In this document: positions 18,374 to 54,689 of the stretch, piece after piece
Numbering within the stretch: the first letter of the stretch is position 1
How the letters are laid out: every line of letters begins with the position of its first letter
IMG/VR virus record: IMGVR_UViG_3300030012_002778
Span: 1 to 56,186 of that record
Origin: a virus
Length of the DNA stretch: 56,186 bases
Direction: 5' to 3' (one strand)
Made by a program: the position numbers and the translations under genes
The notes under the pieces: model-generated
Database searches by the model: none
Told to the model about the DNA's origin: nothing
What the model saw: the letters and a program-made list of their open reading frames with translations, nothing else

Positions 18374-20626
18374 TCACAACTTGCTCGCTAAAAATGCAAC
18401 ATGGTGGCTCATTTGATTTTCAGGATATGCTTTCAGTTCTTCTACTGTTATCCATTTATAGTCGCTATGTTCAAAGGATAGAGTAGGGTTCCAGTCTTCT
18501 TCTACATCTATTCTAAAACAATGGTATTTCTTTGGCGGTGTCATATTTTTATCAAAGTGAACTCCTACTTTTGATGAGGGTTTTTTATTTAATCCAAGTT
18601 CTTCACCCGCCTCAATCATACAGACCTTTTCAGCATTAGGAGTCCCGTCTTCATTAAACTCATCTAGTTCTTCTATCTTGCCACCTGCAAATTCCCAAAG
18701 ACCTATCATTGTATCTTCTTCGGGGGAACGCTCAACAATTAGAATCTTATCTCCTTTGTAGACTGCTACACCTGCCGCATGGCGAACACCGTCTTTATCT
18801 AACAAAAATTTCTTTGGGTTATTTCCTTTAGCATACCAAGAGAGTCCTTTTCTTTGCATTTCTTCAGTATCTTCCTTTACTATTTTTTCCACTATAAAAT
18901 CATCAATAGTATAGTCTTTATCAACAGAACCAGCCGCCCTACCGTATCCTATATTCAACGCTATCTGCATTATTGATTCAGCAGTAGGTTTCTTTCTTTG
19001 TGGTATTCTTACCAACTGATTATAGAAGTGAGAAGGCTTTGCGCCATTCTCATCAAAGTCATCTGACTTATCATCTAAATTTACTTTACCGTCTTTAATT
19101 GGTATCTTCCAATCATAATCTAATGGTTCTTTACCAAATGCCTTTTCTATTTTTGGTATTTGTTCATTCCACCAAGACCTGCCATCAAAATCGCTATCGT
19201 TTGATAATAGTCTTTCTGCTTCGTCTTTAATATAATCGAACATCTCTTCTAAGTTATCTGCCTTAGCAATAATCCCACCGATATTTTCTAGTTCATCCAT
19301 CACAGACATTTTACAGTTATCTTTGAATTTCTGAATATCATCTAGATAAATTCCTTCTTTTAGCCAATCAAAACCCACATGGTCTTTATGATTCTCCCAC
19401 TTCATTAGTTTGAAAATTTCATCACAACGGCTCTTATACCAGTCAGCCTTCTTGTAAGATTTTTTCATGCGTATTAATTCTAATAGTAGTTCAGCATTAC
19501 CTTTCTTTAGCCTAAAATGCGGTAGGCATTTTGTTAGTAATTTTGTCACATCATCTTGTGAATAAAAATTAAGTCTGTTAATTAGTCTAGTATCTTGTGG
19601 TGATTTTTGGTCTAAGTGCATACGACCAAAACCAATTGACTTATGCATTTCTTCCATGAATGCCCGACCTCTAGTTCCTGTAGCAACTAATCCAACTCTA
19701 GGATTCATGTTGCGGTCAAGGGTGATATAACCATCTGAATCAATAAAAGCAGCACAGTAGGCCCAAATATTCTTTTTCATCATAGAAGGCATTTTGTAAT
19801 ATGCTCCATTAGACGAAACAATATCTAATTTTTTTATCATCTTAGAAATCATATTGGGTGAAGATATTTTGAAAAGAGGAGTAGGCATCTTTTCATGTAT
19901 TTCTCTTGCACCTATTCCTTGATTTTCGCAAACCATTTTTATAATAAAATCCTGCTGTCTTTCTTTTTTACTTTTTACTATGGATTGGTCAGTAACTTTA
20001 GCAATAGCATCTCTAAATTCTTTTTTTGCTAAACGCATATTTTTTTGTATTTCGCTATATTCTTTAGAGTAAGCCATATCTCTTTGTTCTAAATCTAATT
20101 CCCAATATTTACACAACGCATCTACAGTTTGTCTTCTAGTTTCAGCATCTTTCATCTTGTGTAATTTATGTAGGTCTTTTTCATTAAATCTCATATTTAG
20201 TAAAGGAACAGAATAAGGAGTTAGCCAATGAATTGACTCAATACATTTTTTCAAGTGGTCACTATATGCATCTATCATTGTGTCAATAGCCTTAGACATC
20301 TTTTCTCTTTGTTCTCCTTTAAGTTCTCTTCTAGCCTTTCTCATTTTTCTAACTAAGTCAGGTATGGTTTGGTCTTGAACCATATATTTAGGAGGGAAAT
20401 TATCTAATTGTTTTCTTGCTTCTGTCGCATTTATGTTTAGTTCGTTAGATAATTTAGAAATTTCTTCATGCTCGGCCATAACATATCCATAGCCTAAGAC
20501 ACCTTTCAACTCAATATCTATTTCTCTCTCTACTGTCTCTTTTACTTCGGCTTCTTCTTCATCAAGTTCAGCAAGCCTTTCCATTTGTTGTGCCGCTTGC
20601 CTGTATTTGTCAGCCTGTTCTGTCAT
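18374..20626 (-). CDS. LAGLIDADG endonuclease-like / Nudix fusion protein, 750 aa
   Basis: Residues ~1-215 are helical, ~220-280 look like a winged helix, and ~288-390 carry a LAGLIDADG-type motif (AAFIDSDGYITL) with the typical following beta-strands. Residues ~616-745 are a Nudix hydrolase domain with GGKIEE and EAGEELGL forming the Nudix box, though the usual Arg of REUXEE is replaced (MIEAGEE). No intein splice motifs are seen at the borders, so it appears to be one polypeptide. It is directly downstream of TerL. The pairing of a homing-endonuclease-like domain with a Nudix domain is unusual; the role is unknown. Confidence 0.85.
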   Translation of the reverse strand: MTEQADKYRQAAQQMERLAELDEEEAEVKETVEREIDIELKGVLGYGYVMAEHEEISKLSNELNINATEARKQLDNFPPKYMVQDQTIPDLVRKMRKARRELKGEQREKMSKAIDTMIDAYSDHLKKCIESIHWLTPYSVPLLNMRFNEKDLHKLHKMKDAETRRQTVDALCKYWELDLEQRDMAYSKEYSEIQKNMRLAKKEFRDAIAKVTDQSIVKSKKERQQDFIIKMVCENQGIGAREIHEKMPTPLFKISSPNMISKMIKKLDIVSSNGAYYKMPSMMKKNIWAYCAAFIDSDGYITLDRNMNPRVGLVATGTRGRAFMEEMHKSIGFGRMHLDQKSPQDTRLINRLNFYSQDDVTKLLTKCLPHFRLKKGNAELLLELIRMKKSYKKADWYKSRCDEIFKLMKWENHKDHVGFDWLKEGIYLDDIQKFKDNCKMSVMDELENIGGIIAKADNLEEMFDYIKDEAERLLSNDSDFDGRSWWNEQIPKIEKAFGKEPLDYDWKIPIKDGKVNLDDKSDDFDENGAKPSHFYNQLVRIPQRKKPTAESIMQIALNIGYGRAAGSVDKDYTIDDFIVEKIVKEDTEEMQRKGLSWYAKGNNPKKFLLDKDGVRHAAGVAVYKGDKILIVERSPEEDTMIGLWEFAGGKIEELDEFNEDGTPNAEKVCMIEAGEELGLNKKPSSKVGVHFDKNMTPPKKYHCFRIDVEEDWNPTLSFEHSDYKWITVEELKAYPENQMSHHVAFLASKL

Positions 20627-49398: not shown

Positions 49399-49415
49399 AC
49401 CCCTTTAAATATAAG
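49398..49415 (+). promoter_or_regulatory. Promoter before the ubiquitin-like gene
   Basis: GAACCCC followed by TTTAAATATAAG, ending about 33 bases before ATG 49448, which has GTGATAAT as ribosome site. Resembles the promoter at 41090-41107. It would allow the ubiquitin-like gene to be made separately. Confidence 0.55.
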
Positions 49416-49447: not shown

Positions 49448-49654
49448 ATGATTAAGTTAAGAATTTTGAATGAAACAGGACACACAGAAGTAGTGATGGA
49501 AAGCAGTGAAGTCATTGAGCAAATCAATACTCACCCAACACACTGGGTTTTTATTGACAGCGAAATGGTAGCAAGAGAAGAGATAGCAAATATAAACTGG
49601 GACGATGTTACATCTGTAGATTTGACTCCGGCTATTGTTGGAGGAAGTCTTTGA
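49448..49654 (+). CDS. Candidate ubiquitin-like (ThiS/MoaD/beta-grasp) protein, 68 aa
   Basis: The predicted order is strand (KLRILN), turn, strand (EVVMES), helix (EVIEQINTH), strand (HWVFIDSEMV), then WDDVTSVDLTPAIVGG and the final SL. This matches the beta-grasp layout, and the end resembles the D-x-V...P-x-V-x-GG tail of ThiS and MoaD. Gly65-Gly66 is followed by Ser-Leu, so a protease would be needed to expose the Gly-Gly. Genes for an E1-like protein and a JAMM protease lie 2.3 and 4.4 kb downstream. I see the pattern; the fold and function are inference. Short length makes chance similarity possible. Confidence 0.6.
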   Translation: MIKLRILNETGHTEVVMESSEVIEQINTHPTHWVFIDSEMVAREEIANINWDDVTSVDLTPAIVGGSL

Positions 49655-49675
49655 TTAGATAGTCCTAAAAATCCT

Positions 49676-49716
49676 CACGGGGGGAAAAGCCGTGGGTCAC
49701 AATTGCTTTTCCCCCC
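49676..49716 (+). promoter_or_regulatory. Strong hairpin with an alternative pairing, after the ubiquitin-like gene
   Basis: GGGGGGAAAAGC (49679-49690) pairs perfectly with GCTTTTCCCCCC (49705-49716). The alternative stem CACGG (49676-49680) with CCGTG (49690-49694) uses overlapping bases, so the two cannot form together. It may be a terminator, RNA-stability element or switch. No U-tract follows directly. Confidence 0.6.
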
Positions 49717-49743
49717 TCCCTCATTCCTTAGTATGGTGTTTCT

Positions 49744-49905
49744 ATGAAAGAAAAGAATCCCCAATACGAAATCAATACAAGAAAAAACATGCGTATAGCG
49801 ACCCGATGTAGGGTCTGCGGTGGTCAGTTATTGACTGCTGAAGAAATTAAAAATGAAATACACGATAGATGTAATGTTGATAATACCAATATGTATATGA
49901 TGTGA
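49744..49905 (+). CDS. Zinc-binding micro-protein, 53 aa
   Basis: ATG 49744 to TGA 49905, just before the 388-aa gene. It contains CRVCGG and one more Cys (DRCN), a partial zinc site. Position between the ubiquitin-like and 388-aa genes makes it a possible part of the same unit. Confidence 0.62.
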   Translation: MKEKNPQYEINTRKNMRIATRCRVCGGQLLTAEEIKNEIHDRCNVDNTNMYMM

Positions 49906-49909
49906 GATA

Positions 49910-51076
49910 ATGAAATTAAAAATAAGAAAACCAGATGACAGTAGCGAATACTATTCTACAGAAATAACCTGCACACAAGCATACACTTATGGAGACGAAA
50001 CAGTTGTTGGACTAGATAGAAGTGCCAAAGACCCTATTCATAGTGGGTTAGTTAGTTTTTGGAGAGGATGCCTTTCCTCTAAAAATCGTAATAGAGGATA
50101 TTTCTATATGCCGACTTCTTCTGATTATAATACAGTAATTATGGTGGGTAGTTGTCCCGTTGCTTTAGAAAAAAGAAATAATAGATTTTATGTTAATGGT
50201 AAAGCAGAAAGCCTATCTACTATTTGCCATGCCTTAGCGAGAGTAACATACAAGTCTTGTTTTGAAAAAGATGCCTCTAAGTTATTATTGGGGCTTTACA
50301 ATACCTTGGCCATTCCTGAAAATGTAAAGTATGTTCTAGAAAATAGACTACCATTTTCTTTTCATGAATATGAAACTAAATACGAAGTAAGACTACCCGT
50401 TCAAATGATAGGAACCGATGAAGTCGCTATAGAAATAGCAGATGGTGTTTGGGGAACTATGTCTGTAAAAACACTAGACAAACTATGTGTGTTTCTTGTA
50501 GAAGGCAAGAAAAGAAGTAAGTTAAAATTTATTTCTCCTAGAAAACTATATTCTATGACGATGGGTAGAGAACCATTAGATTCTGAACTCAAAGTTATGA
50601 TAGAGTTTCTTAAACAAAATAGAATGCAAGATTTAGTTGAAAGACGAGCAATACAATTAGTTAATGATTTATTAGCACAACACCCTGACAGGCTTAAAGC
50701 AGAATACGATGAAGATACCCTACATCGTTTATATGTTCGTGGTAAAGAACATGATTGGATGTTAGAAAATAATAGATATAAATCAGATATTCAAATGGTT
50801 TCTACTTATATTTGGCAACCAGTTGTTTCCTTTGAAAAGATTCTCAACGATGAAGGAGAACCAACGGGCGAAGAAATCAAGATAGTAGATAATCCTAAAT
50901 GGCAAGGGCCAATATGTATAGATAACATGGCTAAAGGTTCTCCATTAGGCGACCAATTTGCCGCTAGAGCATTGGCTCTACTAAATGATACTTTTACAAT
51001 AACAATAGTGAATACAATAAAGCGGTATATTACCGCTAATGCCAATGAATATAGAGTTGATTTTAATGAAATGTAA
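49910..51076 (+). CDS. Unknown protein with E2-like Cys motif, 388 aa
   Basis: ATG 49910 follows GAGATA. Residues ~50-330 are mixed alpha/beta with no known domain. Near the end, NPKWQGPICID (~328-338, Cys336) resembles the HPN...G.ICLD active site of E2 ubiquitin-conjugating enzymes, followed by a helical region (FAARALALLND). The ubiquitin-like gene is upstream and the E1-like gene downstream. An alternative is a PRTRC-type protein B or an unrelated protein; the resemblance is short and unproven. Overlaps the TFB gene by 11 bases. Confidence 0.7.
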   Translation: MKLKIRKPDDSSEYYSTEITCTQAYTYGDETVVGLDRSAKDPIHSGLVSFWRGCLSSKNRNRGYFYMPTSSDYNTVIMVGSCPVALEKRNNRFYVNGKAESLSTICHALARVTYKSCFEKDASKLLLGLYNTLAIPENVKYVLENRLPFSFHEYETKYEVRLPVQMIGTDEVAIEIADGVWGTMSVKTLDKLCVFLVEGKKRSKLKFISPRKLYSMTMGREPLDSELKVMIEFLKQNRMQDLVERRAIQLVNDLLAQHPDRLKAEYDEDTLHRLYVRGKEHDWMLENNRYKSDIQMVSTYIWQPVVSFEKILNDEGEPTGEEIKIVDNPKWQGPICIDNMAKGSPLGDQFAARALALLNDTFTITIVNTIKRYITANANEYRVDFNEM

Positions 51077-51920
51077 AGAATGCGGTTCAACAGAAATAAC
51101 CTTTGACGAGAGGTTAGGAGAGAAGTGTTGTGCAGAATGCGGCTTAGTTATTATAACGGGTATGTTTGAAGAAACAGTTAATCCTATAGAAAGAGGAGAT
51201 AACTATTCTCTAAAGCATAGTGCTGACAAAGGAAGATTAGGTTCTCTAGTAGTGGGTAAAGGTGCATCTAAATATAATAGGCATAATCCAGTATTGCCTA
51301 GAAATGTTATCAACGGTATTACTCATTGTAACATGGTTATGGCTAATCTAAGACTACCAATTAATCTTGCAGAAAGAATACAGAAAGCATACTTAGAATT
51401 ATACAATAGCCATACTCTTAGGAACTTTACTTTAGAAGAAAGAGCGACTGCTATAGTTTACTATCTTCTAAAAGAAAACAGAACCCCTCATCCTCTCAAA
51501 GATGTTGCGAAAGAATTTGATGTTAAACTAAATAGAACTAAAAAACTAATTAGAAAAATAAATCAGTTTTATCGTAACTCTATACATTATTCTATAGATG
51601 ATAGTTCCTATCTTATTGAGCAAACGGCTAGAAAAATAACCGATGAACCGCAATTTGTTTATCAGTGTAATAAAGTAATGCAGAAGTTTGAGACGCTAAT
51701 AGTAAATAGTAACTTCAATAAGTCTAGATGTTATTATGCGGCCATATGTGTATTAGCCTCTACCATATTTGTTAGAGGATATTCTTGTAAGTTCATATCT
51801 GAACAAACAGGATTTCATAGAACTAAGATAGGTAAAGAATGTAAGAACTTACTTACATTATTAGGTGTAGAATCTTTAAAAGATATTAAAGGAAAAGAAT
51901 TGAATAAATTAGGTGAATAA
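51066..51920 (+). CDS. tfb: Archaeal transcription factor B (TFB/TFIIB)
   Basis: The N-terminal zinc ribbon has CKEC (C3, C6) and CAEC (C22, C25). A linker (GRLGSLVVGKGASKYNR) in the place of the B-reader follows, then two cyclin-like repeats (~83-170 and ~178-270). At 284 residues it is close to the normal archaeal length. TFB recruits RNA polymerase to TATA-bound TBP, so a virus copy would direct transcription to virus promoters. ATG 51066 is used; the longer frame lies in the previous gene. Confidence 0.93.
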   Translation: MKCKECGSTEITFDERLGEKCCAECGLVIITGMFEETVNPIERGDNYSLKHSADKGRLGSLVVGKGASKYNRHNPVLPRNVINGITHCNMVMANLRLPINLAERIQKAYLELYNSHTLRNFTLEERATAIVYYLLKENRTPHPLKDVAKEFDVKLNRTKKLIRKINQFYRNSIHYSIDDSSYLIEQTARKITDEPQFVYQCNKVMQKFETLIVNSNFNKSRCYYAAICVLASTIFVRGYSCKFISEQTGFHRTKIGKECKNLLTLLGVESLKDIKGKELNKLGE

Positions 51921-51921
51921 A

Positions 51922-52485
51922 ATGAAAAGAAAAATATTAGTAATTGGAGCAGGTGGAATAGGGAGTTTTCTTATTCCTGTATTAGATAGAGTAGGTTTGT
52001 ATGATATTACAGTAGCCGACCCTGATAAGGTAGAAACAAAGAATCTACCATATCAAAACTTTAGCAAAGAGGCAGTCAGTGTAAATAAGGCTAAATGGCA
52101 AGAAGTTTCTTATGATTCTGTTAAAAATTATAGTGCATATCCTATTCTTAGTGAAAAACAAATGCAAGGATATGACTTGGTTATTTGTTGTGTAGATAAT
52201 ATCGGACTAAGAAGAACTATGTATAACTGTAAAGATTTGAAATGGTTAGATTTGAGAGCGCAAGGCCGTAATGCGGCTATGGTATCTTATACTGCTGACC
52301 CTAAAATGTATGATACATTGTTAGCAGGTGAAGAAAGGTCATTTAGTTGTCAGGGCGATTCATGGGATGGCTCAAATAAAGGAGTTCATTTCATGCAAGT
52401 TGCTATTGCAGGAATGGGCGCACAATGGATTCAGCGTTGGTTTAACGATGAAGAAGTTTGTGATTTTAAGGTGGTGAATGTATGA
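51922..52485 (+). CDS. ThiF/E1-like activating enzyme, 187 aa
   Basis: The nucleotide-binding GAGGIGS (~9-15), acidic D33 ending the second strand, NLPYQNF (~41-47; like NLxRQ of E1/ThiF but with Tyr for Arg) and VICCVDN (~87-93) are E1/ThiF hallmarks. Cys143 in FSCQGDSW could be the catalytic Cys. The zinc CxxC pair is absent and at 187 residues it is a minimal version. It would adenylate the Gly-Gly end of a ubiquitin-like protein. It begins one base after the TFB stop. Adenylation function is inferred from family. Confidence 0.85.
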   Translation: MKRKILVIGAGGIGSFLIPVLDRVGLYDITVADPDKVETKNLPYQNFSKEAVSVNKAKWQEVSYDSVKNYSAYPILSEKQMQGYDLVICCVDNIGLRRTMYNCKDLKWLDLRAQGRNAAMVSYTADPKMYDTLLAGEERSFSCQGDSWDGSNKGVHFMQVAIAGMGAQWIQRWFNDEEVCDFKVVNV

Positions 52486-52772
52486 GCGTGAGAGAATTAG
52501 AGCGCAGGACTCACCAAAGGAGGATGAGTAAGCGTATGAAAAAACACATAGAAATCATGATGAATGACGGTAAGCCTCGTAATATATCACAAATACTTGA
52601 TGCACTGTATGAGAGCAGAAAAAGAAATACACACATGCCGACTAGACAAGAATTGATTAATTTCTTGACCAAGAACTATTCAAAAGAGATGCGTTATGAA
52701 AGGCATCCGTTGTCGTTATCAATTTCAGACGAAAACATACGCACACCGTATTTTAGGAAAGTGATAGAATGA
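52482..52772 (+). CDS. Small winged-helix-like protein, 96 aa
   Basis: ATGA overlap. A basic N-terminus and helical core (HIEIMMNDGKPRNISQILDAL ... TRQELINFLTKNY) resemble HTH DNA-binding modules. It lies between the E1-like gene and another small gene. Function unknown. Confidence 0.7.
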   Translation: MSVRELERRTHQRRMSKRMKKHIEIMMNDGKPRNISQILDALYESRKRNTHMPTRQELINFLTKNYSKEMRYERHPLSLSISDENIRTPYFRKVIE

Positions 52773-53053
52773 TACCAAAATGGGATGATTTAGTTTATAC
52801 AAATAAAGATGATGCTCTCTATATTTTTGTGGCTAAATTAAGACAAACACTACCTGATGTCTTAGAGTCGTTAAGAATAGTAGTCTTGTTAGATAATCTA
52901 ACAGATGATGAGCGTTCTGTTATGGCTACTGTTCTTAACTCACTTGAAGAGTTAGGAACAGACTTTAGAGATAGCGAGTTAGTTACAGCATGGGAAGGTG
53001 CTAAAGATGAATTAGATAAACTTCCAAAATGGAAAAACAATGGTTATTGGTGA
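52769..53053 (+). CDS. Small acidic protein, 94 aa
   Basis: ATGA overlap. Helical and acidic (LTDDERSVMATVLNSLEELG). Ends in KLPKWKNNGYW. Function unknown. Confidence 0.7.
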   Translation: MIPKWDDLVYTNKDDALYIFVAKLRQTLPDVLESLRIVVLLDNLTDDERSVMATVLNSLEELGTDFRDSELVTAWEGAKDELDKLPKWKNNGYW

Positions 53054-53058
53054 TTAAA

Positions 53059-54060
53059 ATGGTAAAATGGACGAGAGAACAGGAAATATATGCATTAAGA
53101 AGTAAAAGAAAGGGATATTCAATCAACAAAATATCAAAGTTGATGAAAAAAAGATATGGTGTAAATAGAAAGTATCATTCTATTTACACTAAGATAAACA
53201 AACTTGAGAAAAAGAATACTATCATTCCCAAAGTAAAAAGTTATATGAAACATGCTAAATACACACAGGAACAAATAGATTTTGTTCATCTTTGTAAGTT
53301 TAATGGTATGCCTCTTGCTAGAATTAGTTTAGCCTTTTACGAACAATTTGGTATTGAAGTTAATCTAAGGCAGATTAATTATTTATTTTATCGTAAGGTT
53401 CCCGCAGATGAAAGGCTGTTTTCTAATGCTCCTGCTATTCAAAAAGAATTAGCACAAGGAAAACTACTACAGGAATTAGAAAAGCCAACAAAGAAACCAA
53501 AAACAAAAGCACCAAAGAGATACACTAAGAAGGAAATAGCCTTGATTAGTAGTTGTAAGAGTGCTAAAGATGCGGAAAAACTTTCTAGTATACTTAAAAG
53601 AAGCAAGGATGCTTTAAATCGTCAGTGGTATTATATCAAGGAGAAAGAAACTATGAGCCAAGACTGGGAAACAAAATCTAAGAAAAAGGCGAAGCCAACG
53701 GTAAAGAAAAACATTCAATCTGTGCAAGAAGAATGGAATAAATTTAAAGACTTAGATTTGTTAATTAATTTCTATGACCTTTCCATAGATGAGGCTAAAG
53801 CACGATATGGATTTTCATATGAAATAATAGCGGGGAGGTTAGAACATTTAATAAACTCAAATAACCCCGACAATATTGCCCTAGTTATAGAAGCCACTAG
53901 AGCCGTCAATGAGCGTAAGTCACAACAGCCTACTGAAACAAAACCAAGCCGCAGACAACTAAGGAAAGAGCGAAAGATGGCAAAGAAAGAAGCAAGGCAG
54001 AAGAAAAGAATCGAAAGAATGGAAAAGAGACTAAAGAAATTAAGAGGTGAAAAGAAATGA
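53059..54060 (+). CDS. Protein with three Myb/SANT-like repeats, 333 aa
   Basis: ATG 53059 follows GGTGATTAAA. Three repeats start KWTREQEIYAL, KYTQEQIDFVH and RYTKKEIALIS; each continues through two or three helices like Myb/SANT DNA-binding repeats, with some Trp replaced. The C-terminal third is Lys/Arg rich coiled coil ending RKRIERMEKRLKKLRGEKK. Probably a DNA-binding virus regulator or architectural protein. Confidence 0.72.
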   Translation: MVKWTREQEIYALRSKRKGYSINKISKLMKKRYGVNRKYHSIYTKINKLEKKNTIIPKVKSYMKHAKYTQEQIDFVHLCKFNGMPLARISLAFYEQFGIEVNLRQINYLFYRKVPADERLFSNAPAIQKELAQGKLLQELEKPTKKPKTKAPKRYTKKEIALISSCKSAKDAEKLSSILKRSKDALNRQWYYIKEKETMSQDWETKSKKKAKPTVKKNIQSVQEEWNKFKDLDLLINFYDLSIDEAKARYGFSYEIIAGRLEHLINSNNPDNIALVIEATRAVNERKSQQPTETKPSRRQLRKERKMAKKEARQKKRIERMEKRLKKLRGEKK

Positions 54061-54689
54061 GTAGAACAGGAGATTGGTTTATGAGAGTTCATGGCGACCA
54101 TGACGATGATGATGGCTATAATGAATTTGAGGAACAATCCGAATTAGATTATTGGAGAGAAAGGGCTGAACAGCATATTTTGGAGAAATGGTTTCATAAT
54201 GCTAATTTAGAGTTAGAATCAGTTAATCATCATAATGATTGGGAAATGACTTGGGAAGACCGAGATAAATTTGATTTTGCATATGCTAGAAGTGAAGATT
54301 TCTTTAGTGCTATTTGGCATGCTTCTACAGAAATATTGCCGGGTCTTGAGGTTCAAGTGGTAATTGACGGTAAGAATAACTGTTATGTTACAACTGGTTC
54401 TCCGGGCTATGTAGAGTTTGGAATGCAACCTCCTATTGGTATGAGTTTACCGATTAAGTGTTGGATTCATACTCATCCATTTGGTAGTGCTTATTTTAGT
54501 GGTGTAGATATTAAAACAGTAAGTCAGTGGCAACCTCTAATGAAAGAGGCTTTTGTTTTAGGTGGTTGGGAATATCAACACTACGGTTGGTGGCAACAAG
54601 CCAAACCAAAACAATTAGCAATCTACCGTAATGGTCAATTAGAAAGAATGCAATATTGGGGTCAAGAGTCGGAGAGTGAAGAAGAGTGA
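54057..54689 (+). CDS. JAMM/MPN-domain metalloprotease, 210 aa
   Basis: The motif H138-x-H140-P-x6-S148-x2-D151 (HTHPFGSAYFSGVD) is a perfect JAMM zinc site, and an upstream Glu (E98 or E120) could complete it. JAMM proteases remove or process ubiquitin-like tails. This fits trimming of Ser-Leu after Gly-Gly in the 68-aa protein. The first ~75 residues are acidic and Trp-rich, the end acidic. It overlaps the Myb-like gene (ATGA). Alternative: a JAB protein of other use, such as in tail assembly. Confidence 0.88.
   Translation: MSRTGDWFMRVHGDHDDDDGYNEFEEQSELDYWRERAEQHILEKWFHNANLELESVNHHNDWEMTWEDRDKFDFAYARSEDFFSAIWHASTEILPGLEVQVVIDGKNNCYVTTGSPGYVEFGMQPPIGMSLPIKCWIHTHPFGSAYFSGVDIKTVSQWQPLMKEAFVLGGWEYQHYGWWQQAKPKQLAIYRNGQLERMQYWGQESESEEE

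Follow-up and report, generated by a model that had tools for sequence, protein, structure and literature searches.

Hijacking of ubiquitin-type systems of the host is known from viruses, and ubiquitin-related genes are scattered among phages. In the current study, we analyzed a 56,186-base IMG/VR virus record (IMGVR_UViG_3300030012_002778; hereafter the window, i.e., this whole stretch of DNA), in which genes on the plus strand between positions 49,448 and 54,689 encode a candidate ubiquitin-like (Ubl) tag together with E1-like, E2-like and JAMM proteins. Based on their sequences and predicted structures, these genes of a magrovirus-like genome probably form a viral cassette that conjugates a ubiquitin-like tag to proteins and removes it again.

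The same activities are united in Bil (BilABCD), a bacterial defence that modifies phage tail tips. They are also combined in bacterial defence by CBASS Cap2/Cap3 (PMC10097602, PMC11153139). Both systems resemble the window in a transfer of the Ubl type via E1 and E2 activities and in removal by a JAMM, but they are bacterial anti-phage defences, whereas the module described here is a core part of the virus, and Cap2 fuses the E1 and E2 that are separate proteins here. Bacterial operons with Ubl, E1, E2 and JAB genes, as well as ubiquitin-like proteins of phage tails, were described by Iyer et al. 2006 (PMC1779556). The PRTRC/class 6d operons of that study have, like the window, separate genes for ubiquitin-like, E1-like, E2-like and JAB/JAMM proteins, and the class 6d E2-like protein likewise lacks the classical His. 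The window differs in that its E1 reached 34.6 bits for PRTRC_ThiF (cut-off 144.75), with no match to the other PRTRC models, and in that its E2-like domain forms the C-terminal part of a larger protein, its genes enclose one for a TFIIB-like factor, and the carrier is an archaeal virus.

In archaea, the SAMP system operates without an E2. The Haloferax SAMP/UbaA/HvJAMM1 set (PMC4895103, PMC4443979) shares with the window an archaeal beta-grasp tag with Gly-Gly, an E1-like enzyme and a JAMM, whereas the window E1 scored 27.9 bits against the UbaA model (NCBIfam NF047750, cut-off 450). The ubiquitin operon of Caldiarchaeum subterraneum (PMC5654768), also archaeal, holds tag, E1, E2, JAMM and a small zinc-binding protein together as the window does; however, the E1 and E2 are far more divergent here, the 53-amino acid (aa) protein of the window has four candidate zinc ligands (C-x2-C, H-x2-C) instead of the eight of a RING, and the system is viral rather than cellular. 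In the RaFAH paper (PMC8276007), the passages on ThiF/MoeB present it as a common auxiliary gene of archaeal viruses and suggest ubiquitination as its role, and these passages name no tag, E2, JAMM or conserved cassette; this ThiF/MoeB gene probably includes the E1 type of the window. Our literature search found no link of magroviruses with ubiquitin and no description of a magrovirus tag, E2-like protein, JAMM or cassette, with an annotation in Philosof 2017 or Prabhu 2025 being possible. The cassette is of a known type, apparently undescribed in archaeal viruses.

The candidate tag and its enzymes

The initial annotation had read four open reading frames (ORFs) as a 68-aa tag, a 388-aa protein, a ThiF/E1-like protein and a JAMM protease, and all four were recovered:

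49448..49654, plus strand: ubiquitin-like tag gene, 68 aa; Gly65-Gly66 at 49640-49645, followed by a Ser-Leu tail
49910..51076, plus strand: 388-aa protein (p388), ORF with a C-terminal domain predicted by the model to be E2-like
50621..51064, plus strand: predicted E2-like domain of p388, aa 238-385; candidate active-site Cys336 at 50915-50917, within GPICIDN
51922..52485, plus strand: minimal E1/ThiF-like activating enzyme, 187 aa; conserved Cys in SCQ at 52348-52350
54057..54689, plus strand: JAMM metalloprotease, 210 aa; Glu98 at 54348-54350, HTHP-x6-S-x2-D at 54468-54509

The 68-aa protein is predicted to adopt the beta-grasp fold proposed for it (order bb-a-bb-a-b; AlphaFold2 with 37 aligned relatives, pLDDT 88.6), and nearly all top Foldseek and VIA matches of the model are ubiquitin, SUMO, MoaD, ThiS and similar folds, with a best Z of 5.8 and MoaD as the top VIA match. 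The Gly-Gly near its C-terminus (Gly65-Gly66) is invariant in all 37 distinct relatives, and is followed by a tail of 0, 1 or 2 residues of nearly any kind; nine variants terminate exactly at Gly-Gly. The tag has, in this way, both the predicted fold of a ubiquitin-like modifier and a conserved C-terminal Gly-Gly located at the end or one cleavage away from it, and this combination of a constant Gly-Gly with a free, disposable tail is, as read from the alignment, the signature of a carrier or modifier. Its mean pairwise identity (72%) is the highest among the linked genes, compared with 46% for p388 and 52% for the JAMM protein. As 53 of 57 variants have at most one lysine, the tag probably does not form long lysine-linked chains. 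A search of the PDB with the tag sequence gave chance matches only, and the PHROG and PADLOC libraries hold no family for the tag, the E2-like or the JAMM protein.

In the model of p388 (pLDDT 85), residues 238-385 run through a helix, a beta-meander, Cys336 and further helices. The best 50 VIA matches of this region are all E2/UEV/RWD-type folds, at modest Z values of 4.3-5.8, in agreement with the E2-like Cys motif that had been assigned to this protein. Cys336 is kept in all 82 relatives and sits after the meander and before the next helix of the modeled secondary structure, as expected from E2s. Its setting is mostly G-[PS]-I-C-[IV]-[DN], with Asp changed to Asn in one diverged branch, and resembles the G-S-I-C-L-D motif of UbcH5.

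The E1/ThiF ORF (51913-52485) would encode 190 aa from a GTG, or 187 aa from the likelier ATG at 51922. The protein scored 53.5 bits against Pfam ThiF (cut-off 28.1), and the elements of its nucleotide site (GxGGxGS, Asp, Lys, Asp) are invariant in the aligned relatives. It remained below the cut-offs of the PRTRC and UbaA models, as described above. The JAMM protein remained below the gathering score of Pfam Prok-JAB/JAB (16.2 bits, cut-off 25).

Judged from its intact motif, the JAMM protein is nevertheless a divergent JAMM/MPN+ member. The catalytic residues E98 and H138-T-H140-P-x6-S148-x2-D151 are invariant in all 34 aligned relatives, 75 of the 76 linked JAMMs show the motif (the remaining one is cut off by a contig end), and the best solved relative is an AMSH-like protease (E 3e-4) that matches around the motif. 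The initial annotation had considered this protease suitable for removing the Ser-Leu tail. Such trimming may be an additional role but is not its sole purpose, because the JAMM is intact in all eight loci with a tail-less tag that extend to the JAMM gene; the conserved role is more likely to be the release of the tag from its targets. At or near the C-terminus, almost every JAMM relative has a short glutamate run (EE or EEE), though the preceding residues vary.

Linkage, expression and distribution of the genes

Two further genes and two candidate regulatory elements belong to the locus:

49404..49411, plus strand: TATA-box-like element TTTAAATA, 37-44 bases 5' of the tag ATG
49679..49716, plus strand: hairpin GGGGGGAAAAGC...GCTTTTCCCCCC, directly 3' of the tag gene
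49744..49905, plus strand: 53-aa zinc-finger-like protein (C-x2-C ... H-x2-C), always immediately 5' of the E2-like gene
51039..51920, plus strand: TFIIB-like transcription factor (Pfam Zn_Ribbon_TF 32.4 bits, cut-off 29)

In all 72 loci in which the downstream flank of the tag gene measures 9.9 kb or more, the six genes share one strand and succeed each other as tag, zinc finger, E2-like, TFIIB-like, E1 and JAMM; this linkage far exceeds chance. The TFIIB-like gene, which in the window overlaps both the E2-like and the E1 gene, is kept in every one of these loci, and the 53-aa protein could be an adaptor. In a sample assembled independently of the module, from large contigs recruited via helicase or portal genes, tag and E1 were present in 27/27 near-complete magrovirus-like genomes and in 0/6 contigs having only a distant helicase. 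The initial annotation had named three observations that would speak against it (no beta-grasp fold, a Gly-Gly not conserved in relatives, genes unlinked elsewhere); none of them was made, and its interpretation is supported in kind by the sequences and models. In most relatives, an interval of about 2.7 kb between the tag and zinc-finger genes, considered as a place for an E3 or other extra component, was found to contain a ribonucleotide reductase and small ORFs (e.g., L044 5524-7392 and L015 4836-6710), which are absent from this place in the window.

The proposal that the tag gene has its own TATA box holds in the relatives too. The pattern [CT]TTA[AT]ATA occurs upstream of the tag gene, at a kept position, in 35 of 61 distinct relatives (0.8% in shuffles), and the same search found it in 1 of 316 upstream regions of the other five module genes. 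The downstream hairpin has a median folding z of -4.5, with 90% of 60 relatives below -2, and in 37 of 63 relatives CCCTTTTT follows at most 120 nt downstream; in the relatives, the hairpin is terminator-like. From the conserved TATA box and the strong hairpin, we infer that the tag is transcribed alone and in excess, with the enzymes on a separate or read-through transcript.

A scan of 84,980 species genomes of cellular organisms found the tag only in three contigs (L252-L254) of one metagenome-assembled genome, Altibacter sp. EAC109. At least two of these, NZTP01000030 and NZTP01000016, hold further module genes and look like binned virus, so that the occurrence is probably a contamination of the bin by virus; L254 represents a distant branch with a tag identity of 52%. 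That the virus had recently acquired the tag from a cell was considered and rejected, as these contigs were the only cellular occurrence found.

Viral E1 and JAMM genes also occur in crAss-like phages, in Acinetobacter phage ME3 and in the phage contigs L061-L064 and L258; the E1 proteins of these are only 27-34% identical to that of the window. In L061/L258-type phages, E2-like, Ubl, JAMM and E1 genes stand in a row. Their E2-like protein has about 700 aa, compared with 388 aa in the window, and bacterial hosts are indicated for these phages by a sigma-70 type factor and PolA. In L061, L062, L063 and L258, this protein carries a C-terminal I/L-C-I/M-V-D and is accompanied by a similar E1, and the tag ends exactly in ..LGG or ..VGG. 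Around the Cys, the 700-aa protein of the L061 type resembles p388 only weakly (hhalign E 0.0067), which suggests a common ancestry of the two. The JAMM and E1 proteins of crAss-like phages exceed those of the window in length, with additional sequence fused to the E1 domain. Given their presence in L061/L258-type phages, crAss-like phages and ME3, virus-borne cassettes are, as far as gene content tells, a recurrent theme, of which the magrovirus version is the most uniform among those examined. A search of named phage records for p388 and for the JAMM protein of the window found none. The E1 and JAMM genes of ME3 (L259) and crAss001 (L261) are annotated as ThiF, PRTRC protein A and metalloprotease, and a small ORF of ubiquitin-like appearance (METRKITVINSK...) lies near the E1/JAMM genes of the crAss-like contig L091 (3695-3973).

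Proposed mechanism and rival explanations

A conjugation cassette is favored because a beta-grasp tag with Gly-Gly, an E1 family match, invariant JAMM residues and an E2-like fold with its Cys coincide with strict linkage, and it gains further support from unrelated bacterial phages in which genes for these four activities are direct neighbours and the tag terminates exactly at Gly-Gly. In such a cassette, the tag would be produced in excess from its own promoter, and the JAMM would trim the tail of one or two residues, where present, to Gly-Gly. The E1-like enzyme would then adenylate the Gly-Gly end using ATP and the tag would be handed, probably via a thioester, to the E2-like domain at Cys336. 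The whole p388 would then couple it to an amino group on a protein of the virus or the host, perhaps selected by the N-terminal domain of p388 and the zinc-finger protein, and the JAMM would take the tag off its target again.

Several observations weigh against this mechanism. The tag sequence was recognized by no family model searched. All 31 aligned E1s have Tyr in place of Arg in the N-x-x-R-Q motif (KNLPYQN or a close variant), for which reason the protein is filed as E1-like and not as a canonical E1, and its ATP handling may differ; besides, no N-terminal extension precedes its Rossmann fold. For p388, the E2 assignment is structural only, at a Z of about 5: Pfam E2 families gave no match up to E 10, hhalign of the p388 profile against E2s was not significant, and the classical HPN motif is absent before Cys336. 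An hmmsearch of the PDB for E2 relatives of p388 was likewise negative, and Foldseek gave no significant PDB match. With the profile comparison failing and HPN missing, we do not file p388 as a UBC member; that it works like an E2 is suggested by the predicted fold and the position of the Cys, and this is, next to the missing Arg of the E1, a weak point of the proposed cascade.

The tag might instead be a sulfur carrier of the ThiS/ThiF, MoaD/MoeB or QbsE/PdtH type with a tail-trimming JAMM, donating sulfur from a thiocarboxylate to a cofactor or tRNA. Sulfur carriers also have a beta-grasp fold, a Gly-Gly and a ThiF-type E1, MoaD heads the VIA matches, and JAMM trimming of tails of one or two residues is known from such pathways. 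We consider this unlikely, as the JAMM is intact even where the tag is tail-less, a sulfur carrier leaves no place for the E2-like protein with its strict linkage and unchanging Cys, and rhodanese, TtuA-type ATP_bind_3 and cysteine-desulfurase families, all of which were detected in control genomes, were found in none of 11 related records; host-encoded sulfur enzymes could, though, serve in their place. Still less probable is a system directed at rivals or host immunity, in which competing virions are modified, or the JAMM and E1 act mainly on a SAMP-like system of the host. The union of the same activities in Bil and CBASS Cap2/Cap3 and the 35 bits of the E1 against PADLOC E1-E2 models are in line with it, but the virus has a strongly conserved tag of its own, which gives the machinery a matching viral substrate, and defence-type partner genes were not found beside the module, the placement of which is uninformative on targets. 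Finally, Pfam Inhibitor_I24, the family of the phage T4 Lon inhibitor PinA, matches 27 of 37 tag members below threshold (best E 1.4e-4; 17 bits for the window tag, cut-off 27), and the tag could accordingly be a protease inhibitor with the E1 and JAMM as incidental neighbours. This would leave the invariant terminal Gly-Gly and the linkage in 72/72 loci unexplained, and we regard it as very improbable.

For the conjugation cassette, we favor a role in early takeover of the cell rather than in virion assembly, since its genes are located in that half of the genome which serves replication and transcription, and have the TFIIB-like factor embedded among them. As a speculation by analogy, host transcription factors would be the first candidate targets, given the overlap of the conserved TFIIB-like gene with the E2-like and E1 genes and the fact that TBP2 of Haloferax is a known tag target that is degraded by the proteasome (PMC4895103). 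If so, host TBP or TFB might be marked for destruction, letting the viral TFIIB-like factor run transcription. No viral proteasome was found in 11 related records.

A fixed, universally kept cassette for tagging, activation, conjugation and removal in a viral order would mean that the virus supplies the whole pathway. More tentatively, and with somewhat more doubt than confidence, we propose that a complete, self-contained viral Ubl cascade belongs to the core of an entire order of archaeal viruses, and that it emerged or spread independently in tailed phages unrelated to them, which would make it a possible general viral strategy. If real, the system would be widespread in the ocean, as magroviruses have been described among the most abundant marine viruses (PMC10160649, citing Philosof et al. 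2017). Besides, the very small E1 and E2-like proteins would be useful for studying the origin of ubiquitin transfer, and the bacterial-phage versions point to possible testable hosts.

The carrier virus

The minus strand of the window holds genes for a portal, a large terminase, an SU10-type capsid protein and an ATP-dependent DNA ligase, and the plus strand holds a helicase, the TFIIB-like factor and small genes. Its closest relatives include contigs of 90-97 kb, and a family B DNA polymerase was found in all ten relatives checked, split in two halves in nine of them, in agreement with the published aoguangvirid map, which shows a split polymerase (PolB-NTD/CTD) plus TFB. Taking Magrovirales as tailed viruses of 90-100 kb with a split family B polymerase, a TFB and two gene blocks of opposite direction, the carrier shows these features as judged via its relatives (the window itself is 56 kb), and the window is on this sequence basis a magrovirus-like genome. 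The predicted host of magroviruses, as taken from the literature, is Poseidoniales (marine group II archaea).

A 750-aa protein encoded among the structural genes of the window (18374-20626) has a C-terminal NUDIX domain (40.8 bits). The 184,733-base record IMGVR_UViG_3300021958_000021 (L024, L059) contains the module twice, in diverged copies separated by about 90 kb, and probably represents two magrovirus genomes joined during assembly.

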